Shown here: positions 11,865 through 32,506 of the stretch, piece by piece
How positions within the stretch are numbered: the stretch's first letter is position 1
How the letters are laid out: every line of letters begins with the position of its first letter
From: Bosea sp. OAE506
Lineage (GTDB): Bacteria > Pseudomonadota > Alphaproteobacteria > Rhizobiales > Beijerinckiaceae
NCBI RefSeq assembly: GCF_040546595.1
Contig: NZ_JBEPOB010000001.1
Span: 3,163,001-3,227,000, forward strand
Direction of reading: 5' to 3'
DNA: 64,000 nt
Made by a program: the position numbers and the translations under genes
The notes under the pieces: generated by a model
The model's database searches: none
What the model saw: only the letters and a program-made list of their open reading frames with translations
Told to the model about the DNA's origin: nothing

Positions 11865-11934
11865 AAACAGCTGGATGGGTGCGGGCGGGCCGCCTGCGCC
11901 CTGCATGAGGCCGTGCCGGCCATGGCCCAAACAG

Positions 11935-12014
11935 AAAAAAGGGCCGCGCGTGAGCGCAGCCCAAGTCTAGGGAGGAAACGCCCAAGGAGGGCGACGCAGC
12001 ATCGCTGCTGCGGT
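11935..12014 (-). ncRNA. Trans-acting small RNA candidate with CU-rich anti-Shine-Dalgarno loops (AbcR/ar15-like)
   Basis: Read on the minus strand, this 80-base unit has all parts of an Hfq-type sRNA. There is a promoter at 12049-12021 and a 7-bp stem CGCAGCA/TGCTGCG (12012-11995). A second stem CGCCC/GGGCG (11993-11979) exposes a UCCUU loop. Then comes a single-stranded UUUCCUCCC (11978-11970), and a terminator stem (GGGCTGCGC/GCGCGGCCC, one mismatch, 11962-11941) ending in six Ts. Paired anti-Shine-Dalgarno motifs are typical of alphaproteobacterial AbcR/ar15 sRNAs. That family name is inference; the transcription-unit structure is directly visible. The transcript start is estimated from the -10 position. 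Confidence 0.72.
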
Positions 12015-12020
12015 GCGTCA

Positions 12021-12049
12021 TAGATAGGAAACGGCGCCCAATCTCACAA
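12021..12049 (-). promoter_or_regulatory. Promoter of the small RNA
   Basis: On the minus strand TTGTGA (12049-12044) and TATCTA (12026-12021) are separated by exactly 17 bases, a good sigma70-type promoter. The predicted start is around 12014, at the first stem of the small RNA. Confidence 0.6.
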
Positions 12050-12234
12050 GAGGAAAAGGGCAGCATCGTTGTCCTAATTTTTGAGCAGGCCGCGTTCGGG
12101 CGGTCTTTTCGGTCGAGGGCGCTGGCCCGCCGGCTGCTGCCGGGCAGCGCTCCAGAGGGCCCTGCGCCTGCCTGCGCCCTGCCCAGCGCATGCCGATTTT
12201 TCGCCGTTGACAGCCAGTTTGGGCCTCTTCAAAT

Positions 12235-12252
12235 TCGTAGGCATACAAATGA
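12235..12252. promoter_or_regulatory. Putative MarR operator before the ABC importer operon
   Basis: TCGTAGGCATACAAATGA matches the strong palindrome at 23491 at 12 of 18 positions, with the core ATACAAA identical. It is flanked by ATTC/GAAT arms (12233-12254). It lies about 90 bases before the substrate-binding protein gene, just downstream of a TTGACA at 12207. It is weaker than the other two sites, so the call rests on the shared core and on the gene content behind it. Confidence 0.4.
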
Positions 12253-12340
12253 ATTCGCGGCTGACGCGGTTTCGTCGGCATGCGACATCTGTCGAAGAGC
12301 GCTGGGGCTTCCGCCACCGGGCCAGACATGGGGAACAGGC

Positions 12341-13558
12341 ATGACGATCGACCGCCGCAGTCTTCTGGCCGGTGCCTCCGCCGGCGCCGCCATCCTCGCC
12401 GCCCCCGCCCTCGTCAGGGCGCAGGGAGCTGGACCGATCAAGGTCGGCGAGATCAACAGCTACACCGCCCAGCCCGCCTTCCTGAAGCCCTATCGCCAGG
12501 GCTGGGAGCTGGCGCTGGAACAGGTCAATGCCGCGGGCGGCGCGCTCGGCCGCAAGATCGAGACAATCTTCCGCGACGATGGCGGCAAGCCCGAGGATGC
12601 GGTGCGCCATGCCGGCGATTTGATCAATGCCGAGAAGGTCGACCTGCTCTCGGGCGGGTTCCTGTCCAATGTCGGTCTCGCCATCGCCGACTTCGCCAAC
12701 CAGAACAAGCGGCTCTATGTCGCCTCCGAGCCGCTCTCCGATGCGCTCGTCTGGGCCAAGGGCAACCGCTATACCTTCCGGCTGCGGCCCTCGACCTACA
12801 TGCAGGCGGCGATGCTGGTCGAGGAGGCTGCGAAGCTGCCCGCCAAGAAATGGGCGATCGTGGCGCCGAACTACGAATACGGCCAGTCGGCCGTGAAGTG
12901 GTTCAAGGAGCTGCTGAAGAAGGCCAAGCCCGATGTCGAGTTCGTCGCCGAGCAGTTCCCGGCGCTCGGCCGCATCGATGCGGGCGCCACCGTGCAGGCG
13001 CTGGAGGCGTCCAAGCCCGACGCGATCTTCAACGTGACCTTCGGCGGCGACCTGACGAACTTCGTCCGGCAGGGTAACACCCGCGGGCTCTTCGAGGGCC
13101 GCACCGTGGTGTCGATGCTGACCGGCGAGCCGGAATATCTCGATCCGCTCGGCGCCGAGGCGCCCGTCGGCTGGATCGTCACCGGCTATCCGCAGGCCGA
13201 CATCAAGACGCCGGAACACCTCAAGTTCCGCGAGGCTTACGTCAAGAAGTTCAATGATTATCCGCGGCTCGGCTCGGTGGTCGGCTTCGACACGATGAAC
13301 TCGATCGCCGCCGCTTTGACCAAGGCCGGCTCGACCGATACCGAGAAGCTCGTCGATGCCCTGAAGGGGCTGAAGTTCCCCTCCGCTTTCGGGGCGGCCG
13401 AGTACCGCGCCATCGACCACCAGTCGACGCTCGGCGCCTATGTCGGCAAGACGGCGCTGAAGGACGGCAAGGGCACGATGGTCGACTGGCGCTACGCCGA
13501 CGGTGCCAAATACCTGCCCAGCGACGATGTGGTGAAGACGCTGCGCCCGGCCGGGTGA
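12341..13558 (+). CDS. ABC transporter substrate-binding protein (branched-chain amino acid/amide type)
   Basis: This 405-residue periplasmic binding protein belongs to the LivK-like (type I fold) family. The N-terminus has a twin-arginine signal (DRRSLLAG, hydrophobic core, cleavage after ALVRA). The mature start IKVGEINSYTAQPAFLKPYRQGWELALEQVNAAGG is typical of the family, as is DLLSGGFLSNVGLAIADFANQNKRLYV. It delivers a small substrate to the permease encoded next. Ligands in this family range from amino acids to urea and aromatic acids. Neighbouring genes suggest an N-heterocyclic acid here, which is inference. Confidence 0.9.
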   Translation: MTIDRRSLLAGASAGAAILAAPALVRAQGAGPIKVGEINSYTAQPAFLKPYRQGWELALEQVNAAGGALGRKIETIFRDDGGKPEDAVRHAGDLINAEKVDLLSGGFLSNVGLAIADFANQNKRLYVASEPLSDALVWAKGNRYTFRLRPSTYMQAAMLVEEAAKLPAKKWAIVAPNYEYGQSAVKWFKELLKKAKPDVEFVAEQFPALGRIDAGATVQALEASKPDAIFNVTFGGDLTNFVRQGNTRGLFEGRTVVSMLTGEPEYLDPLGAEAPVGWIVTGYPQADIKTPEHLKFREAYVKKFNDYPRLGSVVGFDTMNSIAAALTKAGSTDTEKLVDALKGLKFPSAFGAAEYRAIDHQSTLGAYVGKTALKDGKGTMVDWRYADGAKYLPSDDVVKTLRPAG

Positions 13559-13563
13559 GCTCC

Positions 13564-13692
13564 GTCATTCCGGGGCGATCCGCAGGATCGAACCCGGAAC
13601 CCACGACCGGGTGAGCCCGTGCCGCCGCGGTTCCTTCTGACTCGCCCAGTCGTGGGTTCAGGGTTCGACGCTGCGCGCCGCCCCGGAATGAC
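13564..13692. repeat. Palindromic intergenic repeat, copy 1
   Basis: The outer arms GTCATTCCGGGGCG (13564-13577) and CGCCCCGGAATGAC (13679-13692) are perfect inverted repeats. Inner arms (CGAACCC...CCCACGAC and GTCGTGGG...GGGTTCG) extend the pairing, so the whole 129-base element can fold into a long hairpin. It fills the gap between the binding-protein and permease genes. Related elements lie at 17119 and 18127. Confidence 0.75.
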
Positions 13693-13704
13693 AGGATTGC
13701 CCGC

Positions 13705-15594
13705 ATGATCGACCTCATCCTTACCCAGACGCTGAACGGCCTGGCCTCGGCCTCGTCGCTGTTCCTCGTGGCGTCGGGGCTGTCGATCATTTTCGGCGTC
13801 ACGCGGATCGTGAACTTCGCCCATGGCTCGCTCTACATGCTCGGCGCCTATCTGGCCTGGACGCTGGTCGGGCGCTTCGGGCCGGCGGACGCGCTCGGCT
13901 TCTGGGGCGGCGTGCTGGCGGCGGCGGCCCTGACGGGGCTGATCGGCGTCGTGATCGAGGTGCTGATCCTGCGGCGGATCTACCAGGCGCCGGAGCTGTT
14001 CCAGCTGCTCGCGACCTTCGGCGTCGTGCTGATGCTGCAGGACGTGGCGCTGGCGATCTGGGGGGCGGAGGACAAGATCGGCCCGCGCGCCCCGGGCTTC
14101 AAGAGCTTCGTCGTGATCTTCGGCAACCGCTTCCCGACCTATGAGCTGTTCCTGATCGCGGTCGGTCCCATCGTGCTGCTGATCCTGTGGCTGCTGTTCC
14201 AGAAGACGCGCTGGGGCACGTTGGTGCGGGCCGCGACGCAGGACCGCGAGATGGTCGGCGCGCTCGGCGTCAACCAGCGCCTGCTCTTCACTTCGGTCTT
14301 CGCCTTCGGCTCGATGCTGGCCGGCCTGGGTGGTGCGCTGCAGCTGCCGCGCGAGGCGGTGACGCTGCATATGGACCTCTCGATGATCTCGGAGGCCTTC
14401 GTCGTGGTCGTCGTCGGCGGGCTCGGCAGCGTCACCGGCGCCTATCTCGCGGCCGTGCTGATCGGCATCCTGCATGCCTTCGGCATCCTGATCTTTCCGA
14501 AGATCACGCTGGTGCTCGTCTTCCTGGTCATGGCGGTGGTGCTGGTGGTCAAGCCCTATGGGCTGATGGGCAAGGCGCCCGTCGGCCATCAGAGAGCCCA
14601 TGGGCCGGCGGAGCCCTTGTTGCGGCCGGCCGACGGCGCGACCAAGCTCACCGGGCTGATCGGCCTGCTGATCCTGGCGCTGGCGCCGCTGGTCACGCCC
14701 GACCACATGCTGGTGACGCTGACCGAACTGGTGATCTTCGCACTGTTTGCCGCCTCGCTGCACTTCATTATGGGGCCCGGCGGCATGGCCTCCTTCGGGC
14801 ATGCCGCCTATTTCGGGCTCGGCGCCTATGGTGCGGCGCTGGCCGTGAAATGGCTGGGCGCGCCGATGGAGCCGGCGCTGCTGCTGGCGCCGTTCCTGGC
14901 GGGCATCGCCGGAATCGTCTTCGGCTGGTTCTGTGTGCGGCTATCGGGGGTCTATCTGGCCATGCTGACGCTCGCCTTCGCGCAGATCGCCTGGGCGACG
15001 GCCTTCCAGTCGGTCGATCTCACCGGCGGCGACAACGGCATCCTCGGTGTCTGGCCGTCGGCCTGGGCGGCTTCCAAGACGGTCTATTACTACCTGACGC
15101 TGGTGATCTGCGCGGCGGCGGTGCTGGCGCTTCGCTTCACGATCTTCTCGCCCTTCGGCTACGGCCTGCGGGCGGGGCGCGACAACGCGCTGCGGGCGGA
15201 AGCGATCGGCCTCGACGTGGTGCGCATCCAGTGGGTCGCCTTCGCGGTCGCCGCCTTCTGCGCCGGCATTGCCGGCGCGCTTTTCGCCTTCTTTAAGGGC
15301 TCGGTCTTTCCGACCTACATGGCGATTCCGCGCTCGGTCGATGCGCTGCTGATGGTTCTGCTCGGCGGCGTGCAGACGGTGTCCGGGCCGATCATCGGCG
15401 CCTTCGCCTATGCCGGGCTGCACGAGCAACTGATGAAGGCGACGATGTACTGGCGCTTCGCGCTGGGGCTCTCGATCGTGCTGCTCGTCGTGCTCTTCCC
15501 GCGCGGACTCGTCGGCACGATCCTAGCCCTGCGGGAGCGCCGAGCCGGGCCCGAGCCGGTGCCAGCGACCCGGCTGGCGGAGGCGGCCCGATGA
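13705..15594 (+). CDS. Fused ABC permease (LivH-LivM type)
   Basis: Usually two proteins form the permease of branched-chain-type importers; here both are in one 629-residue chain. Residues 1 to about 290 are LivH-like (FGVTRIVNFAHGSLYMLGAYLAW; EAFVVVVVGGLGSVTGAYLAAVLIG). A hydrophilic linker around 290-310 (GHQRAHGPAEPLLRPADG) follows. The rest is LivM-like (GPGGMASFGHAAYFGLGAYGAA; DLTGGDNGI; GLRAGRDNALRAEAIGLDV). About 15-17 membrane segments are visible. It is an inner-membrane channel for the substrate bound by the 12341 product. Its 3' end overlaps the ATPase gene by ATGA. Confidence 0.92.
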   Translation: MIDLILTQTLNGLASASSLFLVASGLSIIFGVTRIVNFAHGSLYMLGAYLAWTLVGRFGPADALGFWGGVLAAAALTGLIGVVIEVLILRRIYQAPELFQLLATFGVVLMLQDVALAIWGAEDKIGPRAPGFKSFVVIFGNRFPTYELFLIAVGPIVLLILWLLFQKTRWGTLVRAATQDREMVGALGVNQRLLFTSVFAFGSMLAGLGGALQLPREAVTLHMDLSMISEAFVVVVVGGLGSVTGAYLAAVLIGILHAFGILIFPKITLVLVFLVMAVVLVVKPYGLMGKAPVGHQRAHGPAEPLLRPADGATKLTGLIGLLILALAPLVTPDHMLVTLTELVIFALFAASLHFIMGPGGMASFGHAAYFGLGAYGAALAVKWLGAPMEPALLLAPFLAGIAGIVFGWFCVRLSGVYLAMLTLAFAQIAWATAFQSVDLTGGDNGILGVWPSAWAASKTVYYYLTLVICAAAVLALRFTIFSPFGYGLRAGRDNALRAEAIGLDVVRIQWVAFAVAAFCAGIAGALFAFFKGSVFPTYMAIPRSVDALLMVLLGGVQTVSGPIIGAFAYAGLHEQLMKATMYWRFALGLSIVLLVVLFPRGLVGTILALRERRAGPEPVPATRLAEAAR

Positions 15595-16397
15595 CCGCTC
15601 TCGCTCCCGCCCCCGTCGCGAGCGCCGGTACCGCCAGCGAGCCGGTCCTCGTTGTGCGCGACCTCGCCAAATCCTTCGGTGGCGTGCGCGCGGTCGATGG
15701 CGTCTCCTTCTCGGTGCTGCCGGGCACGATGCTGGCGCTGATCGGCCCCAACGGCGCCGGCAAGACGACCTGCTTCAACATGCTCAACGGCCAGCTGCGG
15801 CCCGATGGCGGGGAGGTGCTGCTGGCGGGACGGCCGATCACCGGCCTGAAGCCGCGGCATGTCTGGCGCATGGGGGTGGGCCGCACCTTCCAGATCACCG
15901 CGACCTTCACCTCGATGACCGTGCGCGAGAACGTGCAGATGGCGCTGATCTCGCATGCCGGCGGGATCTGGAGCCCCTTCGGCCGCGCCCGCGACCGCCA
16001 TCGCGAGGAGGCGGACGGCCTGCTCGCGCAGGTCGGCATGCTCGAGCAGGCCGAGCGCGCCTGCGGCGTGCTGGCCTATGGCGACCTCAAGCGCGTCGAG
16101 CTCGCGGTCGCGCTCGCCAACCGGCCGCGGCTGCTGCTGATGGACGAGCCGACGGCCGGCATGGCCCCGCGCGAGCGCATCGAACTGATGGCGCTGACGG
16201 CGGGAATCGCCACGGCCACGGGCATCGCGGTGCTCTTCACCGAGCACGACATGGATGTCGTCTTCACCCATTCCGACAGCGTCATCGTGCTCGATCGCGG
16301 CCGGCTGATCGCCCATGGCACGGCGCAGGAGGTGCGTCAGGACCCCAATGTCCGCGCCGTCTATCTCGGCTCCGGCGCCACCTCGGGAGGGCATTGA
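15591..16397 (+). CDS. ABC transporter ATP-binding protein (LivG type)
   Basis: This 268-residue nucleotide-binding subunit of the importer has Walker A GPNGAGKTT near residue 53, a LivG-type signature region (LAYGDLKRVELAVALA in place of a classical LSGGQ), Walker B LLLMDEPTAGMAP, and the switch histidine in FTEHDMDVVF. The first 25 residues are an extra flexible tail. It is translationally coupled to the permease gene by an ATGA overlap. Confidence 0.92.
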   Translation: MTALAPAPVASAGTASEPVLVVRDLAKSFGGVRAVDGVSFSVLPGTMLALIGPNGAGKTTCFNMLNGQLRPDGGEVLLAGRPITGLKPRHVWRMGVGRTFQITATFTSMTVRENVQMALISHAGGIWSPFGRARDRHREEADGLLAQVGMLEQAERACGVLAYGDLKRVELAVALANRPRLLLMDEPTAGMAPRERIELMALTAGIATATGIAVLFTEHDMDVVFTHSDSVIVLDRGRLIAHGTAQEVRQDPNVRAVYLGSGATSGGH

Positions 16398-16398
16398 G

Positions 16399-17109
16399 AT
16401 GAGCGCGATGCTCGAGATCACCGGGCTCGACGCCTATTATGGCCGCGCCCATATCCTGCAGGGCGTGAGCCTTTCGATGCAGCGCGGCGAGGTTCTGGCC
16501 CTGATGGGCCGCAACGGCGCCGGCAAGTCGACGACGATGAAGGCGGTGATGGGGCTCGTCCCGCCCGCCGGCGGCAGCGTCAGCTTCGAGGGCCAGCGCG
16601 TCGACGGGCGCGAGCCCTTCGAGATCGCCCGCATGGGCATCGGCTATGTGCCCGAAGACCGTCGCGTCTTTTCCGAACTAACGGTGATGGAGAACCTGTC
16701 GGTGGCACAGCGCCCGCCGCGGGCGGATGCGCCGCATTGGACGCCGGAGCGGCTGTTTGCGCTGTTTCCCAATCTCGGCCGCATGCGCGACCGGCCGGGC
16801 GGGGCGATGTCGGGCGGCGAGCAGCAGATGCTGACGATCGCGCGCACGCTGATGGGCAATCCCAGGCTCGTCCTGCTCGACGAGCCATCGGAGGGGCTGG
16901 CCCCGGTCATCGTCGAGGAGATGGCCAAGACCATCCTGGCGCTAAAGAGCGAGGGGCTGACCGTGCTGATCTCGGAGCAGAACCTTCATTTCGCCGGAAA
17001 TGTCGCCGACCGCGCCGCGATCATCGAAAAGGGCATCATCCGCTTCACCGGCACGATGGACGAGCTGAAGGCCGATGAGGCGGTGCGGGCGCAGTACCTG
17101 TCGGTGTGA
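16399..17109 (+). CDS. ABC transporter ATP-binding protein (LivF type)
   Basis: This is the second nucleotide-binding subunit (236 residues), with Walker A GRNGAGKST, signature MSGGEQQMLTIARTL, Walker B LVLLDEPSEGLAP and LISEQNLHFA. The ATG at 16399 has GGGAGG eight bases upstream; longer in-frame starts lie inside livG. It is the last gene of the importer operon and converges on the UPF0280 gene. Confidence 0.92.
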   Translation: MSAMLEITGLDAYYGRAHILQGVSLSMQRGEVLALMGRNGAGKSTTMKAVMGLVPPAGGSVSFEGQRVDGREPFEIARMGIGYVPEDRRVFSELTVMENLSVAQRPPRADAPHWTPERLFALFPNLGRMRDRPGGAMSGGEQQMLTIARTLMGNPRLVLLDEPSEGLAPVIVEEMAKTILALKSEGLTVLISEQNLHFAGNVADRAAIIEKGIIRFTGTMDELKADEAVRAQYLSV

Positions 17110-17118
17110 CGGCTTGCC

Positions 17119-17246
17119 GTCATTCTCGGGCGGAGCCCTCGGGTCCGATCCTTGATCGGCCCAAGGATAAACTCCGCGCAGACCCGAGAATCTCCGGACC
17201 AGAGGACACGGGTTTCCGAGATGGTCAGGTCAAGCCCGACCATGAC
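17119..17246. repeat. Palindromic intergenic repeat, copy 2 (degenerate)
   Basis: The element starts with GTCATTCTCGGGC and ends with CCGACCATGAC. Internally TTCTCGGG pairs with CCCGAGAA (near 17185), and ATGGTC pairs with GACCAT at the right end. It resembles copies 1 and 3 in length and ends. Its right end supplies the last codons and stop of the minus-strand UPF0280 gene (stop at 17230). Confidence 0.55.
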
Positions 17247-18105
17247 GTGGCAGAGCCTCGATCCCCCCGACACTGCGCCACTCGTCCGCGAGCGCCAGCA
17301 GCGCGCCCTCGATCAACCCGTCGCGCCGCAGCGCCTCCGCCATCCTCATCCCTGAGCCGAGCGCCGCCGTCATCGCATCGGGCGACAGTGGCCCGACATC
17401 GACGGTGACGGGCAGGTCGCGCAGATCGCTGTCGGGGTCGAGGGCGCGGGCAGGGCAGCGGATGATGGCGGGGTCGGCGACATCGACCGCATTGGCGATG
17501 ACGGTCGCGGCCGCATCGGCCTCGGCGGCGCTGCGGGCGAGCACGGTGACAGCATCGGCGATGCCCCGCGAAAACGACCGGCCGCGCCAGCCGCTCGTCG
17601 CGATGCCGCAAAAATGCTGCGCAGCATGAGGTGCAGCATGAAGCCGGATGAAGCCCTCCGGCCGGGCGCGGGCGAGCGAGGGCACCACGCCGATGTCGAG
17701 CGGATTCTCCGGCGTGACCAGCACGGCGATGTCGCCGCCATTGTTGACATAGGCGCGCTCGAGGCCGGGGACGGCCTGCGCCATCGCGCCCAGCACGGTG
17801 TCGGCGACGGCCCCGGCGACGGCGGCCATCGGCGTGATGAACTGCTCGCGAAAGAACCAGCAGGCACGGGCCATGCGCCTTGCCGTGGCGCCGGCCAGTG
17901 GCGGCGGCTGCGGCCCGAGCGGCTGGCGCAGGATCGCAAGTTCGCCGGCAAGTTCGGCCAGGAGCCCCTCGAACGCAGCCTCGGCGGCGGCATAGGCGCG
18001 CTCGATCTCCGCGGGATGGCCGAAGGCCGCGATGACGAGATCGCTCGGGCCTTCCTGCAGATGCAGACGGTTGCCCGGGAGGCGGGCGACGCGGTGGGAT
18101 ATCAT
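17230..18105 (-). CDS. UPF0280 family protein (ApbE-like)
   Basis: This 291-residue protein of the UPF0280 family has a fold related to the flavin transferase ApbE. Visible family features are REQFITPMAAVAGAVADTVLGAM, the YVNNGGDIAV segment and the GIATSGWRGRSFSRGIADAVTV segment, as in ApbE-like proteins. The ATG at 18105 has GAGAGAG just upstream. It lies downstream of the 6-hydroxynicotinate reductase-like gene on the same strand. A role in flavin attachment or maturation of that flavo-iron-sulfur enzyme is attractive but only inferred. Confidence 0.85.
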   Translation of the reverse strand: MISHRVARLPGNRLHLQEGPSDLVIAAFGHPAEIERAYAAAEAAFEGLLAELAGELAILRQPLGPQPPPLAGATARRMARACWFFREQFITPMAAVAGAVADTVLGAMAQAVPGLERAYVNNGGDIAVLVTPENPLDIGVVPSLARARPEGFIRLHAAPHAAQHFCGIATSGWRGRSFSRGIADAVTVLARSAAEADAAATVIANAVDVADPAIIRCPARALDPDSDLRDLPVTVDVGPLSPDAMTAALGSGMRMAEALRRDGLIEGALLALADEWRSVGGIEALPRHGRA

Positions 18106-18126
18106 CGCTCTCTCGTGAAGCAACCC

Positions 18127-18233
18127 GTCATTCCGGACAAGCCGCGGAGCGGCGCCGATCCGGAATCCATCATAAGGCAGCGTCAGTGCCCTATGATGGA
18201 TTCCGGGTCTGCGCTTCGCTTGCCCGGAATGAC
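18127..18233. repeat. Palindromic intergenic repeat, copy 3
   Basis: The outer arms are GTCATTCCGG and CCGGAATGAC. The inner arms CCGGAATCCATCATA and TATGATGGATTCCGG form a second near-perfect inverted repeat around a short loop. The element lies between the reductase-like gene and the UPF0280 gene on the minus strand, and shares its ends with the copy at 13564. Confidence 0.75.
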
Positions 18234-18251
18234 GGCGGGAGCGCGTCTGAT

Positions 18252-19784
18252 CTAACGGACATCCCGCCGCAGCGGCCAGGGGTTCTCCGCCGCGCCGCCC
18301 TCGATCCGGGCCTGGCCGCCATGGGCGCGCAGGACCTCCTCGACCGGCACGATCTCCTCTGTATGGCCGCCGCAGGCGAGATAGAGATCGCGCGGCAAGG
18401 TGAACTCGATCGGCGCGACGATGGCGGGCGTCGGGACATAGCCGAAGGCGTTCCGGGGCATGCGCAGCACATCGACCATGACGGTGATGCCGCCGCCGGG
18501 CCAGACATAGACCGGCGCGCCGCCCATCGTGACGCGCGTCGTGCCTGATTGCACGGAGCGGGTGAGCAGGATCGGGTTCTCGGTGACGCCGGCCCGCAGC
18601 GAGCCGCCGGCCCCGGCGACGAACAGAACGCTGCAGAGCGACGGCTCGCAGTTCTCGCCGATGCGCTCGACGAACTGGCGCACGGCGGCGGGCATCTCCG
18701 CCTCTACGGGAACGAGGTTCTCGTCGAGGACGCAGTAGAGCGAATCCTCGCCGGTGGTCGAGGTCATCAACAGCCGCATGCCGGGCCAGGCCAGCGCCGG
18801 GTCGATCTTCTGGATGATCGAGAGCGGGTCGGTGATGTCTGTGCCGCCCCAGCCGAGGCCTGGCTGCGCGACCTGGAAATAGCGGCCGGGCGTCGATTTG
18901 CGGCCGCGGACGCGGATGCCGGCCGGCTTCATGTCGAGCACGCGGCCGGCCTGATGCTCGGTCAGCACGCCGGTGATGTGGTCGTCGACGACGATGACCT
19001 CGTCGACATGGTCCTGCCACTGCTTGGCGAAGATGCCGATCGTGGCCGAGCCGCAGCCGACGCGCATGCGCGTCTCGGGCTTGCCGTCGACGATCGGCGC
19101 CTGGCCGGCCTGGACGACGACGCCATGACCGCCATCAATGGTCAGTTCGACCGCCTCTCCATTGCCGAGCTTCAGCATCGTCTCGCAGGTGGTGTTGCCC
19201 TCCTTCTTGGAGCCGCCGGTGAGATGGCGCACGCCGCCGATGGAGAGCATCTGCGAACCGTATTCGGCAGTCGTGACATGGCCGACCTGCTCGCCATTGA
19301 CGCGGATCGCGGCGGTCTCCGGGCCGAGATGGCGGTCCGTGTCGATCTTCACCTTGAGGCCGCAATAGGAGAAGATGCCCTCGGTCACCACGGTCACCGT
19401 GTCGATGCCCTCATGCTGCGACGAGACGATGAAGGGGGCGGGCTTGTAGTCGGGATAGGTCGTGCCCGAGCCGATGCCGGTGACGAAGACGCGCTCGGCG
19501 GGCAGGATCGAGCCGTCCCAGTCCTGTGCGTTCTCCGCGAACGCGACGAGGGGCTGGCCGCCCTCCACCGCCTCCGCCAGCAGCACGACCGGGTCGGTGC
19601 GGATCAAGAGCCCGTTCTCGTTGGCATAGCGCGAGCAGGCGCCGGCGCGGCCCGGGCGGATCCGGCACAGCACCGGGCAGGCGTCGCAGCGAACGATGCC
19701 CTCATCGCCCTCGGCGACGCCGAATTTGCGCGAGCGCTCGGCGAGCACGCTGTCCTGTGCGCTCATCGGGTTGATCTCGTTCAC
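18252..19784 (-). CDS. hnr: 6-hydroxynicotinate reductase-like iron-sulfur flavoprotein
   Basis: This 510-residue protein resembles the 6-hydroxynicotinate reductases annotated in nicotinate degraders. Those reduce the pyridone ring to 1,4,5,6-tetrahydro-6-oxonicotinate. The N-terminus has a four-cysteine cluster motif C33-x2-C36-x3-C40-x9-C50. Later it contains YCGLKVKIDTD, a glycine-rich MRVGCGSATIGIF, and VVDDHITGVLTEHQAGR, which recalls FrhB-type proteins. Its ATG overlaps the stop of the hydroxylase gene (19781-19784). The ring-opening partner enzyme is encoded at 24207, supporting the assignment. The exact substrate is inferred. Confidence 0.78.
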   Translation of the reverse strand: MNEINPMSAQDSVLAERSRKFGVAEGDEGIVRCDACPVLCRIRPGRAGACSRYANENGLLIRTDPVVLLAEAVEGGQPLVAFAENAQDWDGSILPAERVFVTGIGSGTTYPDYKPAPFIVSSQHEGIDTVTVVTEGIFSYCGLKVKIDTDRHLGPETAAIRVNGEQVGHVTTAEYGSQMLSIGGVRHLTGGSKKEGNTTCETMLKLGNGEAVELTIDGGHGVVVQAGQAPIVDGKPETRMRVGCGSATIGIFAKQWQDHVDEVIVVDDHITGVLTEHQAGRVLDMKPAGIRVRGRKSTPGRYFQVAQPGLGWGGTDITDPLSIIQKIDPALAWPGMRLLMTSTTGEDSLYCVLDENLVPVEAEMPAAVRQFVERIGENCEPSLCSVLFVAGAGGSLRAGVTENPILLTRSVQSGTTRVTMGGAPVYVWPGGGITVMVDVLRMPRNAFGYVPTPAIVAPIEFTLPRDLYLACGGHTEEIVPVEEVLRAHGGQARIEGGAAENPWPLRRDVR

Positions 19785-22570: not shown

Positions 22571-23445
22571 GCTGCGGCCTCCATCGGCTTGCCGGCGAGT
22601 TGGGTCAGCGCCCGGCGCACCAGCACGAGCGCCGCATCGCGGCGGTAGGCTGCGCTGGCGCGGAGATCGTCGATCGGCGACAGGGCGGCGAGGTCTTCGG
22701 GCTGGACGAGCGTGGCGAGATCGCCGGCCGGCTGGCCGATGAGCCGGGCCTCCAAGGTGACCAGACGCTGCGGCGCAGCTGAGCAGGCGCCGACGGCGAT
22801 GCGAGCGGCTGAGACCTGCCTGTAGCCATCGGTCGCTAGGACGGCGGCAACGGAGGCGATGGAGATGACGAGATAGGCCCGCGCGCCGAGCTTGAGGAAG
22901 GTAGAGCTGGCGCCCTCTGGCTGGGCGGGGACATGGATCGCGGCCAGGATTTCGTCGGGCGCCAGCGCGGTGCGGCGGTTGCCCAGCACGAAGGCTGCGA
23001 GCGGCAGGCGGCGGTGGCCGCGCCGGCTCGCCAGTTCCACCTGCGCGTCGAGCGCCAGCAGCGGCGGCACGCCGTCGGCGGCCGGTGAGGCATTGCAAAG
23101 ATTGCCGCCGATCGTGCCGCGGTTCTGGATCTGCACGCCGCCGACCTGCCGGCTGGCCTGTTTCAGAGCGTCGAAGGCGGGCGGCAGCGCGGCCTCGGCA
23201 AGGGCGCTCCAGGTCGCGCCGGCCCCGATGCGCGTTCCGGCCGCGTGATGCTCGATTCCGGTGAGTTCCGGCACCGCTCCGAGGTCGAGCACATCCCGGC
23301 TGAAGGGCTGGAACCAGGCGCTCTTGTGGGTACGGACGGGGTAGACATCCGTGCCGCCGGCCAGAGGCATCAGCGGTGTGCCGTCGGCCTGCGCGCGGAG
23401 CGCCAGCGCCTCGTCCAGCGTGGTCGGCCGCAGATAGCGCGCCAT
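22567..23445 (-). CDS. Xanthine dehydrogenase-family FAD-binding subunit
   Basis: This 292-residue flavin subunit (CO dehydrogenase medium-chain type) has the FAD-binding motifs AGGTDVYP (about 30-37) and TIGGNLCNASPAAD (about 114-127). It passes electrons from the iron-sulfur clusters of the fused partner to an unknown acceptor. It is the first gene of the operon and its promoter region holds the strongest palindrome of the window (23491). Its stop overlaps the partner's GTG start. Confidence 0.92.
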   Translation of the reverse strand: MARYLRPTTLDEALALRAQADGTPLMPLAGGTDVYPVRTHKSAWFQPFSRDVLDLGAVPELTGIEHHAAGTRIGAGATWSALAEAALPPAFDALKQASRQVGGVQIQNRGTIGGNLCNASPAADGVPPLLALDAQVELASRRGHRRLPLAAFVLGNRRTALAPDEILAAIHVPAQPEGASSTFLKLGARAYLVISIASVAAVLATDGYRQVSAARIAVGACSAAPQRLVTLEARLIGQPAGDLATLVQPEDLAALSPIDDLRASAAYRRDAALVLVRRALTQLAGKPMEAAA

Positions 23446-23490
23446 GGCCAGCTCCCCTCGAATGTGACGATCCGGAACCCTTGCCGATTA

Positions 23491-23508
23491 TTGTTAGTAT
23501 ACAAACAA
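23491..23508. promoter_or_regulatory. MarR-type operator before the hydroxylase operon
   Basis: TTGTTAGTATACAAACAA pairs at 8 of 9 positions as a perfect-length palindrome. It lies 46 bases before the start codon of the FAD-subunit gene and 35 bases past the stop of marR. It is AT-rich in a GC-rich setting. A related site (14 of 18 identical) lies between marR and the enamidase gene, so the MarR product is the likely ligand. Confidence 0.7.
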
Positions 23509-23542
23509 GGTGGCGCAAGCGGATTTTGCGGGCAGGCCCTGC

Positions 23543-24037
23543 TCAATCCAGACGCGCGAGAAGAGCGAGCAGACGCTCCGCCTCCTCCCGGGAAAGCGGC
23601 GAGAGCGTCGCGGCCGTGATGGCGCGCGCCTTCTCGGTGAGGCCGGGCATCGCGTCCAGCCCGGCCGGGGTCAGGCGGACGCGGACGCGCCGCTGGTCAT
23701 CCGGGTCCGGCCGGCGCTCGACCAGCCCCCGCTCGGCCAGCCGCGCGATGACACCCTTGATCGTCGCGGGGTCCATGGCGGTCATGCGTCCGAGCTGATT
23801 CTGGGAGATTTCCTCACCCGCGCCGAGCTTGGCCATGGCGGCGAACTGGGTCGGCGTCGGGCCGTCATCGCCCATGATCCGCTGGAAGATCGCGATGTGG
23901 CGCTGCTGCGCGCGCCGCATCAGGAAGCCGACCTGCTCCTCGAGCACATAGGCTTCGGCCGGCTTTCGAGCCCGCCTGGCGGCGTCTGCCGGCGGCTCGC
24001 CTTCCGCTTCGGCGACGGGGGACTCGATGCGCGTCAT
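23543..24037 (-). CDS. MarR family transcriptional regulator
   Basis: This 164-residue winged-helix regulator has the DNA-binding core QNQLGRMTAMDPATIKGVIARLAERGLVERRPDPDDQRRVRVRLTPAG, with the MarR wing signature DDQRR. An N-terminal basic/alanine-rich tail precedes the dimerisation helix. It is divergent from the enamidase gene and upstream of the hydroxylase operon. MarR proteins beside aromatic-catabolism genes commonly act as ligand-released repressors, so it probably senses a pathway substrate. Confidence 0.9.
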   Translation of the reverse strand: MTRIESPVAEAEGEPPADAARRARKPAEAYVLEEQVGFLMRRAQQRHIAIFQRIMGDDGPTPTQFAAMAKLGAGEEISQNQLGRMTAMDPATIKGVIARLAERGLVERRPDPDDQRRVRVRLTPAGLDAMPGLTEKARAITAATLSPLSREEAERLLALLARLD

Positions 24038-24140
24038 GGCAGTATCCTAGCCTCCCCGGCGGCGTGCGCCCCGGGGCTTGCGGGGGAGGTCTTCAGGCCT
24101 CTTGCCATCCCCTTGCCAGCGGCGGCGGGCCTCTCCATGA

Positions 24141-24158
24141 TTGTTATTACACATTCAA
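24141..24158. promoter_or_regulatory. MarR-type operator between marR and enamidase
   Basis: TTGTTATTACACATTCAA is identical to the site at 23491 at 14 of 18 positions. It is enclosed by GATTG/CAATC arms. It lies in the 169-base divergent gap between marR and the enamidase gene, so it could autoregulate marR and control the ring-opening operon. Confidence 0.6.
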
Positions 24159-24206
24159 TCGCCGCCTGTCCCGTGGGGCGCCGGCGGCAGGGCTGCGGAG
24201 ATCCAG

Positions 24207-25400
24207 ATGGCTCACGACGTCGCGGCGGGACCCGCCCAGGGCAAGCTGGTGGTCCGCAACATTGGCCTGCTGCTCTCGGGCGATTTGAACAAGCCGATCC
24301 TTGATGCCGACACAATTGTCGTCGTCGACGGGCGCATCGCGGCGATCGGCAAGGCGGCCGATCTGGATCTCTCCGGCGCGGACACCGTGATCGACGCGAA
24401 GGGCTCGGGCCTGTCGCCGGGGCTGATCGATTCCCATTGCCACCCCGTTTTCGGCGACTGGACGCCGCGCCAGAACCAGCTCGGCTGGATAATCGAGATG
24501 GGGGTGAATGGCGGTGTCACTACGCTGGTCTCGGCCGGCGAGGTGCATCTGCCGGGCCGGCCGAAGGATGCCATCGGCGTCAAGGCGCTGGCCGTCACGG
24601 CGCAGCGCTGCTTCCAGAATTTCCGGCCCGCCGGCGCCAAGGTGATCGCAGGTGCGCCGGTGGCCGAGCTCGACTTCGGCCGCGAGGTCTTCGAGGAGCT
24701 AAAGGCGCTCGGCATCCGCCATATCGGCGAGATCGGGCTCGGCACCGTCGCCAAGGGGCCCGACGCCAAGCGGGTCGCCGACTGGTGCCGCGAGATCGGG
24801 CTCGAATCCATCATGCACACCGGCGGTCCGTCGATTGCCGGCTCGCATTTCGTCAACAAGGACGATGTGCTGGAGGCCCAGCCCGACGTCGTCAGCCATA
24901 TCAATGGCGGGCCGACCTCGATCGCCCACGCCGACATCCGCATTCTCTGCGAGCGGGCGAAGGGCGCGCTCGAGGTCGTCCATAACGGCAACGAGAAATC
25001 GGCGCTGGTGGCGCTGGAGGCCGCACGCGAGGCCGGGCGGCTGGCAGATGTGCTGATTGGAACCGATGCGCCCGCGGGCTCGGGCGTCCAGCCCAATGGC
25101 GTGCTGCGGATGATCACGCTGTTGTCGAGCCTGGGCGGGCTGCCGGCCGAGCAGGCGTTCTGTCTCGCCACCGGCAATGTCGCGCGCCGGCGCTCGCTCG
25201 ATGCCGGGCTGATCGCGCTGGGCTATCCCGCCGATTTTGTTTTCCTCGACAAGCCGCAGCATTCCTCGGGCAAGGGCCTGCTGGAGGCGGTCGCGCTCGG
25301 CGATATTCCCGGCATCGGCATGGTGGTGATCGACGGGCTGGTGCGGACCGGGCGCTCGCGCTCGACGCCGCCCTCGCACAGCGCCCCGGCCGTGGTCTGA
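24207..25400 (+). CDS. ena: Enamidase-like amidohydrolase
   Basis: This 397-residue binuclear amidohydrolase very closely resembles Eubacterium barkeri enamidase, which opens 1,4,5,6-tetrahydro-6-oxonicotinate to 2-formylglutarate and ammonia. Metal-ligand motifs are H77 and H79 (DSHCHPVFGDWTPRQ), MHTGGPS, SHINGGPTS and the aspartate in IGTDAPAGSG. The PGRPKDAIGVKALAVT and RPAGAKV segments also match the enamidase. The ATG at 24207 is the first with a plausible ribosome site. It begins a plus-strand operon and is divergent from marR. The function assignment is strong for the family and inferred for the substrate. Confidence 0.87.
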   Translation: MAHDVAAGPAQGKLVVRNIGLLLSGDLNKPILDADTIVVVDGRIAAIGKAADLDLSGADTVIDAKGSGLSPGLIDSHCHPVFGDWTPRQNQLGWIIEMGVNGGVTTLVSAGEVHLPGRPKDAIGVKALAVTAQRCFQNFRPAGAKVIAGAPVAELDFGREVFEELKALGIRHIGEIGLGTVAKGPDAKRVADWCREIGLESIMHTGGPSIAGSHFVNKDDVLEAQPDVVSHINGGPTSIAHADIRILCERAKGALEVVHNGNEKSALVALEAAREAGRLADVLIGTDAPAGSGVQPNGVLRMITLLSSLGGLPAEQAFCLATGNVARRRSLDAGLIALGYPADFVFLDKPQHSSGKGLLEAVALGDIPGIGMVVIDGLVRTGRSRSTPPSHSAPAVV

Positions 25401-25411
25401 AAGGCAGTCCC

Positions 25412-25999
25412 ATGAGCGTGCTCGTCGAGATTCGCCGCATCCAGACCACGGTCGAGGAGATCTTCCATGAATTCGGCCCGCTGCCCGGCCGCACCGAGCG
25501 CATCGCCTCCGTCTGCGCCGTGCTGACCAACCCCTATGCCGGCCGCTACGTGCCCGACATCATGCCGATGATGGAGGCGCTCAAGCCCGCGGGGCTGGAG
25601 ATGGCGACGCGCTGCCTGAACGCGCTCGGCGGCGATCCCGCGACCATCGAGGGCTACGGCAAGGGCGCCGTCGTCGGCTCGGCCGGCGAGTTGGAGCATG
25701 GCGCGCTCTGGCATGTGCCGGGCGGCTACGCGATGCGCGAGATCCTCGGCAACGCCAAGGCGATCGTGCCTTCGACCAAGAAGGTCGCCGGGCCGGGCGC
25801 GCGGATCGACATCCCCGTTACCCACATCAACGCCTGCTATGTGCGCAGCCATTTCGGCGCGGTGGAGGTCGGCGTGCCGGGCTCGCCCCAGGCCGACGAG
25901 ATGGTGCTCATCCTCGTCATGACCACGGGCGCGCGCATCCATGAGCGCGTCGGCGGTCTGCGCGCCGACCAGATCAGCGTCTGGGACGGGCAGCGCTAA
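25412..25999 (+). CDS. PF06684 (amino acid synthesis family) protein, copy 1
   Basis: This 195-residue cytosolic protein belongs to the PF06684/DUF1185 family, whose name is not backed by a clear function. Typical segments are TNPYAGRYVPDIMPMME, GKGAVVGSAGELEHGALWH and HINACYVRSHFGAVEVGVPGSP. It starts 11 bases after the enamidase stop and is followed by a paralogue. In this setting it may act on a product or intermediate of ring opening, which is inference. Confidence 0.85.
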   Translation: MSVLVEIRRIQTTVEEIFHEFGPLPGRTERIASVCAVLTNPYAGRYVPDIMPMMEALKPAGLEMATRCLNALGGDPATIEGYGKGAVVGSAGELEHGALWHVPGGYAMREILGNAKAIVPSTKKVAGPGARIDIPVTHINACYVRSHFGAVEVGVPGSPQADEMVLILVMTTGARIHERVGGLRADQISVWDGQR

Positions 26000-26043
26000 G
26001 CGCGCACGCCGCCCCGACACCCGCCCTTCCGCCGGAGCCCATC

Positions 26044-26628
26044 ATGCCCGCGACCATCCGCAAGATCCTCACCCAGGTCGACGAAACCCTGATCGAAGGG
26101 GGCCGATCCGTCTCGCCGCCGACGCGGCGCGCCGTCTCGATCGCCGTAATCGCCAACCCGTTTGCCGGAGGCTACCGCGACGATCTCGGGGAGCTGACCG
26201 AGATCGGCGTCGAACTCGGCGATCTCCTGACCAAGCGCTGCCTCGCGGCGCTCGGCATCGAGCCCGGCCAGGCCGAGAGCTTCGGCAAGGCGGCGATCGT
26301 CGGCGAGGGCGGCGAGCTGGAGCATGCGGCGGCGATCCTGCATCCGAAGATGGGCACGCCGGTGCGCGCCGCGCTCGGCAAGGGCCCGGCGCTGATCCCC
26401 TCCGCCAAGAAGCGCGGCGGGCTCGGCACGCCGATCGACGTGCCGCTCGGCCATAAGGACGCGGCCTATGTCCGCTCTCATTTCGACGCGGTCGAGGTGC
26501 GGGTCACGGATGCCCCGCGCTCAGGCGAAATCCTGGTCGCGATCGCGGTGACCGATTCCGGCCGCCCGCTGCCGCGCATCGGCGGGCTGACCAAGGACCA
26601 GATCAAGGGCGAGGACGGGCTGCGCTGA
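26044..26628 (+). CDS. PF06684 (amino acid synthesis family) protein, copy 2
   Basis: This 194-residue paralogue of the preceding gene shares ANPFAGGYRDDLGELTEIG, GKAAIVGEGGELEHAAAILH, HKDAAYVRSHFDAVEVRV and the C-terminal RIGGLTKDQI. The two copies align over nearly their whole length but have diverged strongly, so the duplication is old and they may form a hetero-oligomer. It lies 44 bases downstream of copy 1. Biochemical role unknown. Confidence 0.85.
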   Translation: MPATIRKILTQVDETLIEGGRSVSPPTRRAVSIAVIANPFAGGYRDDLGELTEIGVELGDLLTKRCLAALGIEPGQAESFGKAAIVGEGGELEHAAAILHPKMGTPVRAALGKGPALIPSAKKRGGLGTPIDVPLGHKDAAYVRSHFDAVEVRVTDAPRSGEILVAIAVTDSGRPLPRIGGLTKDQIKGEDGLR

Positions 26629-26728
26629 GCGCGCCGCATTCAGAATAATTCGAGGGCCGAGGAAACCGGAGGACCGGTCGGCGCGACCACCGGGCGGAGC
26701 AGGATCGCTTCGCCGGATAGGTTCCGCC

Positions 26729-27328
26729 ATGACCTTCACCCTCACGAACTTCCAGCAGGGGCGTTTTCTCGACGCCAACGACCCCGAGACGCGCGACGGG
26801 GTCTGCGTCGCGCTCTGCGACCTCTGGCTGAAATCACTGTTCGAAGCGCCTGGAGCCGCGCCGCGGCTGCGGCTGCAGGCCCTCGCTGTCGATTTCAGTC
26901 GGGCGGAGGCGCATCAGCGGCGCTACGGGCGGCTGCGCGATACCCTCGGCCGCGACGATGCGCGCCGCCAGATGGGCGCTCGCGTCGGCATCGACTTTGC
27001 GGAGCAGACCTTTGTCGACATGAAGCTGCATGCCGGACGCGAGGGCATGCGCCGGAAGGTCGCCGACGACCTGCGCGAGCCCGGCGCCGCCGCAACCTGG
27101 ACGATGCGCTTTTCAGGGGGCGGCGGCCATGCCATCGCCGGGATCAACCGGATCGAGCCGCGCCCCTATGGCCTCGAATGCCGGATCCACATCTTCGATC
27201 CGAATCTCGGCGAGTATGCCGGCGACTATGGCAGTTGCGGCGCGATCATCGAGGATCTCGTCCGGCGCATCCCGCTCTATGCCACGACGGCGATCTTTCA
27301 CCGCACGGCGGCGACGGGGACACGATAG
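26729..27328 (+). CDS. YopT-type (peptidase C58) cysteine protease-like protein
   Basis: This 199-residue protein shows the catalytic triad of the YopT/AvrPphB peptidase family in order and spacing. C26 lies in DGVCVALCDLWL, H134 in GGGGHAIAGI and D157 in IFDPNLGEY. Known members are effectors that cleave host proteins or process themselves. There is no Sec signal peptide; a type III signal cannot be judged by eye. It starts 100 bases after the PF06684 pair on the same strand and is probably functionally separate. Family assignment rests on these motifs only. Confidence 0.68.
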   Translation: MTFTLTNFQQGRFLDANDPETRDGVCVALCDLWLKSLFEAPGAAPRLRLQALAVDFSRAEAHQRRYGRLRDTLGRDDARRQMGARVGIDFAEQTFVDMKLHAGREGMRRKVADDLREPGAAATWTMRFSGGGGHAIAGINRIEPRPYGLECRIHIFDPNLGEYAGDYGSCGAIIEDLVRRIPLYATTAIFHRTAATGTR

Positions 27329-27360
27329 GGCGGACCGAAGGTCCGCCCCCGTCCTTCGTC

Positions 27361-28782
27361 TCAGCCTCCCAGCGACATCGTCAGCGGCGGCTTGACCTCG
27401 GGCGGCAGGGGCGAGGTGTAGCCTTCCGCGCCCAGGCGCTTCTTGTGATCGGCCTTGGCGGCAGCCATCAGGGCGGGATCGAGCAGGACCGCAGCGCCTG
27501 TCGCGGCCATCGCCTTGGCGACATGGACCATCGCCTTGTGGGCAGCCGGGCTCTTGCCCTGGGCGACGACCTGCCAAGTGTGGAAGGGCGTGCCGATCGC
27601 CACCGTCGGCGCATGGGCCTGGACCGTCGGCACGGCCCAGCTCACGTCGCCGATATCGGTCGAGCCGATCGCCGGGTTGCGCTTGGCGTCCATCGGCACG
27701 AGGAAATCAGCCAGCGGCGCGCCGGTGTCATCCATGCCGATGGTGCGCCAGATCGAGGCGATCTCCTGCGCCTGCAGGGTCTTGCGGATCTCCTGGGCGA
27801 AGGCGCGGTCGGCGTCGTCGAAATGCGGCGGGCCGAGCTCCTCCATCACGCCATGCATTGCCTGCTCCAGCGGGGTGTTGCCGAGGAGGTCGGAGACGGC
27901 GCTGACAATGCGCATCTCCATCTTGGTTTCCGTCATCAGCGCGGCGCCTTCGGCGATCTTCTTCACGCGCTGGACGAGTTCGAGCATGCCGCGGAGATCC
28001 CGCGCGCGGATCGAATAGCGTACGCGGGCATGGGCCTGGACGACGTTGGGGGCGATGCCGCCGGTGTCGAGCACGGCGTAATGCACGCGGGCGTCGCTTG
28101 GCATGTGCTCGCGCATGTAATTGACGCCGACATTCATCAGCTCGACGGCGTCGAGCGCGCTGCGGCCGAGATGAGGCGCGGCGGCGGCATGCGCGGTGCG
28201 GCCGGTGAAGGTGAAGTCGGCGCGGGTGTTGGCGAGCGCGAGCGGCGGCGCCACCTCCCACCAGCTCGACGGGTGCCAGGAGATCGCGACGTCGGCATCG
28301 TCGAAGGCGCCGGCGCGGACCATGAAGGCCTTGGCGGCGCCGCCTTCTTCCGCCGGGCAGCCGTAATAGCGCACGCGGCCGGGCAGCTTGTTCTCGGCGA
28401 GCCAGTTCTTCATCGCCACGGCGGCGAGAAGCGCTGCTGAGCCCAGAAGGTTGTGCCCGCAGCCATGGCCGTGGCCGCCAGTCTCGACCGGAGAGTGGCT
28501 GGCGACGCCGGCCTCCTGCGACAGGCCTGGCAGGGCGTCATATTCGCCCATGAAGGCGATGACGGGTCCGCCTTCGCCGGCCTCGCCGATGACGGAGGTC
28601 GGGATGTCGGCGATGCCCTTGGTGACGCGGAAGCCCTGATGCACTAGCTCGGCTTCATGCTCGGCGCTGGACCGCGTCTCAGTGTAGCAGACCTCGGGCA
28701 TGCCCCAGACCCGCTCGCTCAGCGCGATCAGGCGCTCCTTGTTGGCATCGACGTGGCGCCAGAGATCGTTTCGGTTGTCCAT
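27361..28782 (-). CDS. M20 family metallo-amidohydrolase (AbgB-like)
   Basis: This 473-residue zinc-dependent hydrolase belongs to the M20 family, closest in look to p-aminobenzoyl-glutamate hydrolase subunit B. Motifs are the acid in MGEYDALPG, GHGHGCGHNLLG, the catalytic EEGGAAK, a dimerisation domain (about 190-310) and a late metal-ligand region near GTPFHTWQV. It cleaves an amide bond in the cytosol. It converges on the C58 protease gene. It may process an N-acyl or amide intermediate of the neighbouring pathway, but there is no shared operator to support that. Confidence 0.88.
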   Translation of the reverse strand: MDNRNDLWRHVDANKERLIALSERVWGMPEVCYTETRSSAEHEAELVHQGFRVTKGIADIPTSVIGEAGEGGPVIAFMGEYDALPGLSQEAGVASHSPVETGGHGHGCGHNLLGSAALLAAVAMKNWLAENKLPGRVRYYGCPAEEGGAAKAFMVRAGAFDDADVAISWHPSSWWEVAPPLALANTRADFTFTGRTAHAAAAPHLGRSALDAVELMNVGVNYMREHMPSDARVHYAVLDTGGIAPNVVQAHARVRYSIRARDLRGMLELVQRVKKIAEGAALMTETKMEMRIVSAVSDLLGNTPLEQAMHGVMEELGPPHFDDADRAFAQEIRKTLQAQEIASIWRTIGMDDTGAPLADFLVPMDAKRNPAIGSTDIGDVSWAVPTVQAHAPTVAIGTPFHTWQVVAQGKSPAAHKAMVHVAKAMAATGAAVLLDPALMAAAKADHKKRLGAEGYTSPLPPEVKPPLTMSLGG

Positions 28783-28901: not shown

Positions 28902-29309
28902 TCAGCAGCAGGCGGCGGTGGGCGGCGCAGCGAGATCGCTGAGGATCGGGCAGTCGGGCCGGCCGTCGCCCTGGCAGGTCTCGGCGAGATGGCGCAGCGT
29001 GTCGGCCATGGCCTGGAGTTCGGCTGCCTTGGCTTCGAGATCGCGGACATGGCTCATCGCGAGGCGCTTCACATCGGAACTGGCGCGGCTCTTGTCGCGC
29101 CAGAGTGCCAATAGCGCGCGGCTTTCCTCCAGCGAGAAGCCGAGATGGCGGGCGCGCCGGATGAAGCGCAGCGTGTGGACGTCCTCGGCCTCGTAGACGC
29201 GGTATTGCGCCTGCGTCCGCTGCGGGGCCGCGATCAGGCCGATGCTCTCGTAGTAGCGGATCATCTTGGCGCTGACGCCCGACTGCCGTGCCGCTTCGCC
29301 GATGTTCAT
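28902..29309 (-). CDS. cueR: CueR-type MerR family copper regulator
   Basis: This 135-residue MerR protein has an N-terminal winged helix (MNIGEAARQSGVSAKMIRYYE), a coiled-coil dimer helix, and metal-site cysteines C112 and C120 in TCQGDGRPDCPIL. S77 is present, as in monovalent-ion (Cu+/Ag+) sensors. It ends in ACC. CueR proteins activate copper export genes, but no copA or oxidase is nearby. It starts 4 bases after the modE-like stop, so it may be co-transcribed with the molybdate genes. Confidence 0.85.
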   Translation of the reverse strand: MNIGEAARQSGVSAKMIRYYESIGLIAAPQRTQAQYRVYEAEDVHTLRFIRRARHLGFSLEESRALLALWRDKSRASSDVKRLAMSHVRDLEAKAAELQAMADTLRHLAETCQGDGRPDCPILSDLAAPPTAACC

Positions 29310-29721: not shown

Positions 29722-29796
29722 GGCGGCGTCCTCGGGCATGCTGTCATGATAGGCATCGCGTGCGGAATGCCCAAGGCGACCATCGGCCAAAGGCCT

Positions 29797-32386: not shown

Positions 32387-32407
32387 CTGCCGGTCCTCCG
32401 CGTGACG

Positions 32408-32433: not shown

Positions 32434-32506
32434 TGGTCGCAGAGGGCGGCGCGGCGAGTCAAGGCGCGTCCGTCGGGGATAGCGATGGTTGAGGTTTTGG
32501 TCCGCG

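Follow-up and report, generated by a model that had tools for sequence, protein, structure and literature searches.

Reductive nicotinate-type catabolic genes in Bosea sp. OAE506 and the coupling of 6-hydroxynicotinate reductase to a UPF0280 protein

Introduction

Which ring compound is served by the genes at positions 12341-26628 of a 64,000-nucleotide stretch of the Bosea sp. OAE506 genome, and why does a gene of the UPF0280 family stand directly behind the gene of its presumed ring reductase? The stretch, hereafter the window, covers positions 3,163,001 to 3,227,000 of contig NZ_JBEPOB010000001.1 (assembly GCF_040546595.1). A preliminary description of this DNA had proposed a reductive, nicotinate-type pathway with a dedicated importer in an alphaproteobacterium, in which a molybdenum hydroxylase (Mo-hydroxylase), a protein like 6-hydroxynicotinate reductase (Hnr) and one like enamidase (Ena) are combined in one region with an ATP-binding cassette (ABC) importer, a UPF0280 protein and two PF06684 proteins. 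All of these genes are present, with family matches far beyond chance, and our analysis supports the proposal in its core. Judged from sequence, the region as a whole is best explained as a gene cluster for reductive nicotinate breakdown, of the kind found in Azorhizobium and Eubacterium barkeri, a reading to which we give a probability of about 0.85. Beyond the cluster itself, two patterns among related genomes seem to be new leads, namely the coupling of Hnr to UPF0280 and the near-exclusion between Ena and a HyuA-type hydrolase. The genome is a single 5.0-Mb contig with one Hnr, and several of the nearest UPF0280 relatives, which reach 95% identity, bear the label Bosea sp. (a-proteobacteria), thus the alphaproteobacterial host is correct.

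The Gene Cluster and Its Enzymes

The genes of the region are as follows.

12341..13558, plus strand: substrate-binding protein of the ABC importer (Peripla_BP_6; PF13458, 237 bits)
13705..15594, plus strand: fused LivH-LivM permease (PF02653 in two stretches of a single open reading frame of 629 amino acids)
15591..16397, plus strand: LivG ABC ATPase (PF00005, PF12399)
16399..17109, plus strand: LivF ABC ATPase (PF00005)
17230..18105, minus strand: UPF0280 protein (COG2122), directly behind Hnr and its proposed maturation factor (NF003322, 339 bits against a cut-off of 290; homologue of 2o34)
18252..19784, minus strand: putative 6-hydroxynicotinate reductase, Hnr
19781..22570, minus strand: Mo-hydroxylase of the nicotinate dehydrogenase type with fused [2Fe-2S] and Mo domains (homology to NdhL, NdhM and NdhS)
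22567..23445, minus strand: FAD subunit of the Mo-hydroxylase (XdhB-like)
23543..24037, minus strand: MarR-family regulator, probably acting locally (PF01047, 47.6 bits)
about 24207..25400, plus strand: putative enamidase, Ena (342 bits, E 6e-101, to the solved E. barkeri enamidase 2VUN)
25412..25999, plus strand: PF06684 protein 1 (224 bits, cut-off 27; 206 bits to 3byq)
26044..26628, plus strand: PF06684 protein 2 (235 bits, cut-off 27), the copy closer to that of E. barkeri

Read from 23445 down to 17230, the minus-strand genes thus encode the FAD subunit, the fused [2Fe-2S]/Mo subunit, Hnr and UPF0280. The importer (12341-17109) is of the branched-chain type; relatives of its binding protein (55-63% identical) and of the fused permease (54-58%) are found in Hnr clusters of Comamonadaceae, Sulfitobacter and Methylobacterium, and MarR genes also adjoin other Hnr clusters.

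The evidence for the enzymes comes mainly from comparison with the E. barkeri locus (NZ_FNOU01000012.1, L031), which was retrieved with the sequence of the solved enamidase. Against their counterparts in this locus, Hnr is 40%, UPF0280 34% and the FAD subunit 34% identical (the last to NdhF); the Mo-hydroxylase matches NdhS, NdhL and NdhM at 45, 38 and 40% over most of their length, Ena is 45% identical over 385 residues, and the two PF06684 proteins are 42% and 53% (protein 2) identical to the one beside ena. Hnr, Ena and the Mo/Fe-S subunit thus stand at 38-45% identity to their E. barkeri counterparts. The separate nicotinate dehydrogenase chains of 3HRD score 266, 217 and 120 bits against the Mo-hydroxylase, which together exceed the 380 bits of the best single chain, 1dgj, in an informal sum over chains, and the nicotinate dehydrogenase stretches MWYGIGNTG and FRGFGVPQ are kept. 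In the alignment to E. barkeri Ena, the HxH, MHTGG, SHINGG and DAP residues, which we take to be metal ligands, are identical. Hnr itself has no Pfam family above cut-off (only a weak GCV_T_C match) and no NCBIfam model at E 0.01; its cysteines C32, C35, C39, C49, C243 and C378 (numbered without the start codon) are invariant in all 24 aligned sequences. The three members by which we recognize a reductive nicotinate cluster, a Mo-hydroxylase, Hnr and an enamidase with its metal residues, are thus all found by sequence.

In E. barkeri, hnr is followed by UPF0280, then by an NAD-binding dehydrogenase gene, ndhF-S-L-M, a gene for a membrane protein, ena, PF06684 and a mutase gene; the dehydrogenase, membrane protein and mutase are presumed identities, assigned by eye and after the cluster reported by Alhapel 2006. 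The window shares the Mo-hydroxylase, Hnr, the UPF0280 gene directly behind it, Ena and the PF06684 gene behind ena. The same gene set, UPF0280 and PF06684 included, occurs in 8 of the 9 further loci retrieved with the E. barkeri enamidase; the ninth, L035, stops inside Hnr, and an eleventh locus, L041, is no true relative (25%). UPF0280 and PF06684, which the preliminary description had listed beside the E. barkeri steps, are present in E. barkeri as well and so belong to a shared module. In one such locus, that of Anaerotruncus colihominis JM4-15 (L038), the Hnr frame at about 11218-12576 lacks an internal stretch found in strain DSM 17241 (L037), part of which shows up twice in tblastn.

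There are also clear differences. The hydroxylase subunits are fused in the window and separate in E. barkeri, the window has an ABC importer where E. barkeri has a single membrane protein (permease-like by eye), and PF06684 is present in two copies instead of one. Moreover, the cysteine-rich, ferredoxin-like domain found at the N-terminus of Hnr in E. barkeri and other anaerobes is missing from the window protein. This stretch, with two CxxCxxCxxxC-type motifs and ferredoxin-like by eye, is present in all nine enamidase-retrieved loci that include the N-terminal part (L033, which is truncated, is left out of this count). In contrast, the 18 rows of the window's phylum in the 24-row Hnr alignment are without it and keep the third cysteine motif, C243 and C378. 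Because of this absence, the short Hnr probably takes its electrons from a different donor than E. barkeri Hnr. No ferredoxin-like domain was found in the subset of window proteins that was scanned. Of six plasmid clusters, five are annotated, and three of these (L116, L118, L119) have a gene for ferredoxin-NADP reductase close to Hnr, whose product might supply the short Hnr with electrons. The last of the three, on a plasmid of Sulfitobacter pontiacus (NZ_CP084962.1), resembles the window cluster in Ena (55%), Mo-hydroxylase (54%), Hnr (66%) and the fused LivHM (54%), shares UPF0280, two PF06684 genes and MarR, and itself includes the ferredoxin-NADP reductase gene together with one for a ring-hydroxylating dioxygenase.

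The Proposed Pathway and Its Substrate

In the pathway that we propose, nicotinate or a closely related pyridine carboxylate would enter through the ABC importer, the Mo-hydroxylase would convert nicotinate to 6-hydroxynicotinate, Hnr would reduce this to 1,4,5,6-tetrahydro-6-oxonicotinate, and the enamidase would hydrolyse the ring to 2-formylglutarate and ammonia; the carbon may then enter central metabolism via glutarate. UPF0280 would act as a maturation factor dedicated to Hnr, and PF06684 in an accessory step, possibly the handling of imines or enamines, that is not exclusive to the nicotinate pathway.

The preliminary description had found it odd that an anaerobic-type route occurs in a presumably respiring alphaproteobacterium, yet this was already known. 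PMC3511419 cites a reductive nicotinate route in the aerobe Azorhizobium (Kitts 1989 and 1992) and describes, in 2012, a nicotinate cluster of the Bradyrhizobiaceae, reporting it for Azorhizobium caulinodans ORS571, Bradyrhizobium japonicum, Rhodopseudomonas palustris HaA2 and strain SG-6C. By that description, compared here without gene order, these clusters share the first three steps with the window and likewise, in aerobes, encode a putative ABC transporter along with two conserved proteins of unknown function. According to the same paper, SG-6C grows on and degrades nicotinate with 6-hydroxynicotinate as a transient intermediate and can enter the route from 6-chloronicotinate, and the Azorhizobium route after ring opening passes via glutarate. 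A difference from E. barkeri after ring opening is thus expected.

The later E. barkeri genes had been described as absent. This holds for the window, and the B12 mutase, which we take to be 2-methyleneglutarate mutase (Mgm), has no full-length homologue anywhere in the genome (the best match, at 32 bits, spans some 100 of its 614 residues). For the formylglutarate reductase class absence is not shown: the E. barkeri dehydrogenase that we presume to be formylglutarate reductase has six homologues of 31-39% identity outside the cluster, along with three weaker matches.

It is conceivable, though quite improbable, that enzymes of these types have a related ring as their substrate, for example a different pyridine carboxylate, a chloronicotinate product or a compound resembling a pyrimidinone, and that nicotinate is a poor or non-physiological substrate. 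The fused Mo-hydroxylase, only 38-45% identical to NdhLMS, would fit such a view, as would the variation of hydroxylase, importer and ring-opening enzyme among Hnr-bearing clusters and the entry of SG-6C from 6-chloronicotinate (PMC3511419). On the other hand, three consecutive enzymes match the same three steps of E. barkeri, and the cluster is called a nicotinate cluster in a nicotinate-grown relative (PMC3511419); nicotinate remains our preferred substrate.

Coupling of UPF0280 to Hnr

UPF0280 is a poorly characterised family known mainly from homocysteine synthesis, where it acts together with DUF39. We surveyed 397 genomes of the phylum of the window (Pseudomonadota). Hnr matched 40 of them, and 38 were kept after leaving out two with short N-terminal matches (G072 and G288; E 1e-5 and 1e-3); one of the 38 is split in two abutting pieces (G016) and one has a stop in the open frame (G134). 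The UPF0280 profile matched 41 genomes, and again 38 were kept, the other three having matches over 33-43 positions (G119, G239, G319; E 3e-6 to 6e-4). The full-length proteins occur in an identical set of 38 genomes, spanning 19 genera (Fisher p 6e-54, kinship ignored), and in all 38 UPF0280 shares its contig and strand with Hnr and follows it at a distance of -6 to 489 bases. The adjacency was also seen in 30 of 30 loci.

The search for DUF39 and UPF0280 was extended to the ten genomes from which loci L031-L037 and L039-L041 come; nine of them have Hnr in the locus. Six of these are without DUF39 and each has one UPF0280, and the three with DUF39 each have two, the second adjoining DUF39 in two genomes and lying on another contig in the third. 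The tenth, whose locus is without Hnr, has neither DUF39 nor UPF0280. With one copy in the absence of DUF39 and two in its presence, UPF0280 tracks its client. DUF39 has no match in the genome of the window, therefore UPF0280 cannot serve DUF39 there. Taken together, UPF0280 looks like a client-specific maturation factor that is probably needed to build Hnr. A literature search retrieved no paper combining any two of 6-hydroxynicotinate reductase, UPF0280 and ApbE. We do not claim that Hnr is homologous to DUF39: certain stretches are alike by eye and both are partners of UPF0280, but the profiles are not significantly similar, with whole-profile hhalign E values of 0.13-0.37 and 48 of 150 column-shuffled decoys scoring as high; for two segments chosen by eye, decoys did so in 10 and 6 of 150 cases.

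What Could UPF0280 Do for Hnr?

Our leading guess, held at somewhat less than even odds, is that UPF0280 attaches a covalent flavin to Hnr by a chemistry that is like that of ApbE but altered. Hnr of E. barkeri reportedly carries such a flavin (Alhapel 2006). UPF0280 is placed in the ApbE superfamily by public annotation, and some of its relatives carry PF02424 in precomputed annotation. Its residues D220, T224, S194 and G195 are invariant in 19 of 19 sequences (numbers follow a query 23 residues longer than the gene product), and its ADxxAT motif (D220, T224), which presumably has a metal role, aligns with ADGLAT of the solved ApbE 6nxi/6nxj. The core motif was found in 96 of 120 close relatives, 31 of which have some histidine within it. 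ApbE, according to PMC12052999, uses a base histidine and the target D-x-x-[S/T]-G-A-[S/T], and according to PMC5764234 COG2122 is distantly related to ApbE and apparently without its flavin-binding region.

Several results speak against a flavin role. UPF0280 has no conserved histidine column fit for the ApbE base, the only column with at least 10 histidines being residue 38 (12 of 19), and the ApbE target occurs in none of 142 Hnr sequences; relaxed to [S/T]GA[S/T] it occurs in 2, and in a looser form in 22. An SGTT motif in the window Hnr was rejected as an ApbE-type flavin site, since E. barkeri Hnr is without such residues there. The profile search of PDB sequences gave 2o34 at E 4e-15, and of the 22 further sequences up to E 10 eight are ApbE, individually not significant (E 0.23-1.4). 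The lack of a base-histidine candidate and of the target motif would instead suit a role of UPF0280 in the chemistry of sulfur or Fe-S clusters (formation of persulfide or assembly of clusters), as would the invariant cysteines of Hnr and the requirement for COG2122, alongside DUF39, in the formation of homocysteine, where a persulfide-forming role was proposed for it (PMC5764234). Sulfur transfer is not expected of Hnr, however, and the superfamily assignment and the ADxxAT motif shared with solved ApbE sequences point elsewhere, so that we consider this role doubtful. A non-catalytic structural subunit or chaperone of Hnr would likewise fit the strict adjacency in all loci and genomes, but the invariant Asp, Thr and Ser-Gly residues suggest an active site and E. 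barkeri Hnr is reported to have been purified without a UPF0280-like subunit, which makes this explanation unlikely. Altered flavin attachment therefore stays our first choice among the three.

Ring Opening by Ena and, Probably, by HyuA

Twenty-three of the 38 genomes with Hnr encode full-length Ena (E < 1e-130), and in 20 of these the gene lies no more than 20 kb from Hnr; the other Ena matches listed are weak (E 4e-7 or worse). In the plasmid Hnr clusters L116, L117 and L121, which have no enamidase match, HyuA/HyuB-type ATP-dependent hydrolases are present by annotation. The genome survey of ring opening covered HyuA, and an orthologue was defined as at least 60% identical to the Fuscovulum HyuA near Hnr, a cut-off set after the gap to the next best (at most 47%) had been seen. 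By this definition 17 of the 38 genomes have an orthologue: all 15 without Ena and 2 of the 23 with it (Fisher p 9e-9, kinship ignored). Families f1 and f17 each contain Ena-only and HyuA-only genomes, family f2 has Ena only (10 of 10), and in family f3 all nine genomes have HyuA and two of them Ena as well. Of the 17 genomes, 9 have the orthologue at most 10 kb from Hnr, 6 have it on a different contig and 2 have it 73-99 kb away. Without an identity threshold, 36 of the 38 have some HyuA relative, the genome of the window among them (best 46%). In G122 and G170 (contig C11), Ena and two PF06684 genes lie off the Hnr contig, and both genomes also have a HyuA orthologue.

The HyuA family hydrolyses lactams, according to PMC8453981 and PMC11033972, and thus opening of the tetrahydro-oxonicotinate ring is plausible. 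HyuA is probably an ATP-dependent replacement of Ena in the Hnr genomes without Ena. Among the matches listed, none of the titles and abstract openings links HyuA-type lactam hydrolysis to this ring. Joining both leads, one may tentatively picture UPF0280/COG2122 as a cofactor installer that serves two families of clients, Hnr and the DUF39 enzyme of homocysteine formation, and adds covalent flavin by non-ApbE chemistry, and an ATP-dependent HyuAB-type lactamase opening the ring where Hnr clusters lost enamidase, though in this full form the picture is doubtful.

PF06684 and the Neighbouring Genes

PF06684 is present in 37 of the 38 Hnr genomes and also in 37 of the 359 others, which rules it out as Hnr-specific. 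A 2010 structure paper (PMC2954203) inferred a role in amino-acid metabolism, partly from neighbouring branched-chain-type transporters; in clusters like that of the window, such transporters more likely carry a pyridine carboxylate.

The preliminary description had extended the region to 28782, but its last gene, an M20-family amidohydrolase (27361-28782, minus strand; TIGR01891), probably lies outside the module. Neither this gene nor the open reading frame at 26729-27328 (plus strand), which barely passes the cut-off of Peptidase_C58 (23.3 bits against 23.0) and stays below that of a YopT-type NCBIfam model (20.1 against 52.95), has a tblastn match (E 1e-8, more than 60 bits) at up to 14 kb from Hnr in any of six plasmid clusters. 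A MerR gene follows at 28902-29309. Further on, 2.7-6 kb beyond the PF06684 genes, the minus-strand genes at 29314-32627 resemble a molybdate importer, which we count in favour of a nicotinate cluster:

29314-29790, minus strand: HTH_1 protein, putative regulator of the molybdate importer, ModE-like by position
within 29314-32627, minus strand: ATPase with TOBE domain and permease of the putative molybdate importer
31583-32386, minus strand: SBP_bac_11 binding protein of the putative molybdate importer

Implications

A reductive nicotinate route in an aerobe is not news; of more lasting interest are UPF0280 and the probable alternative enzyme for ring opening. The near-exclusive pattern of Ena and HyuA predicts a second way to open the same ring, and the strict coupling to Hnr in the genomes examined gives the conserved UPF0280 family a second client, in a presumably dispensable catabolic pathway.

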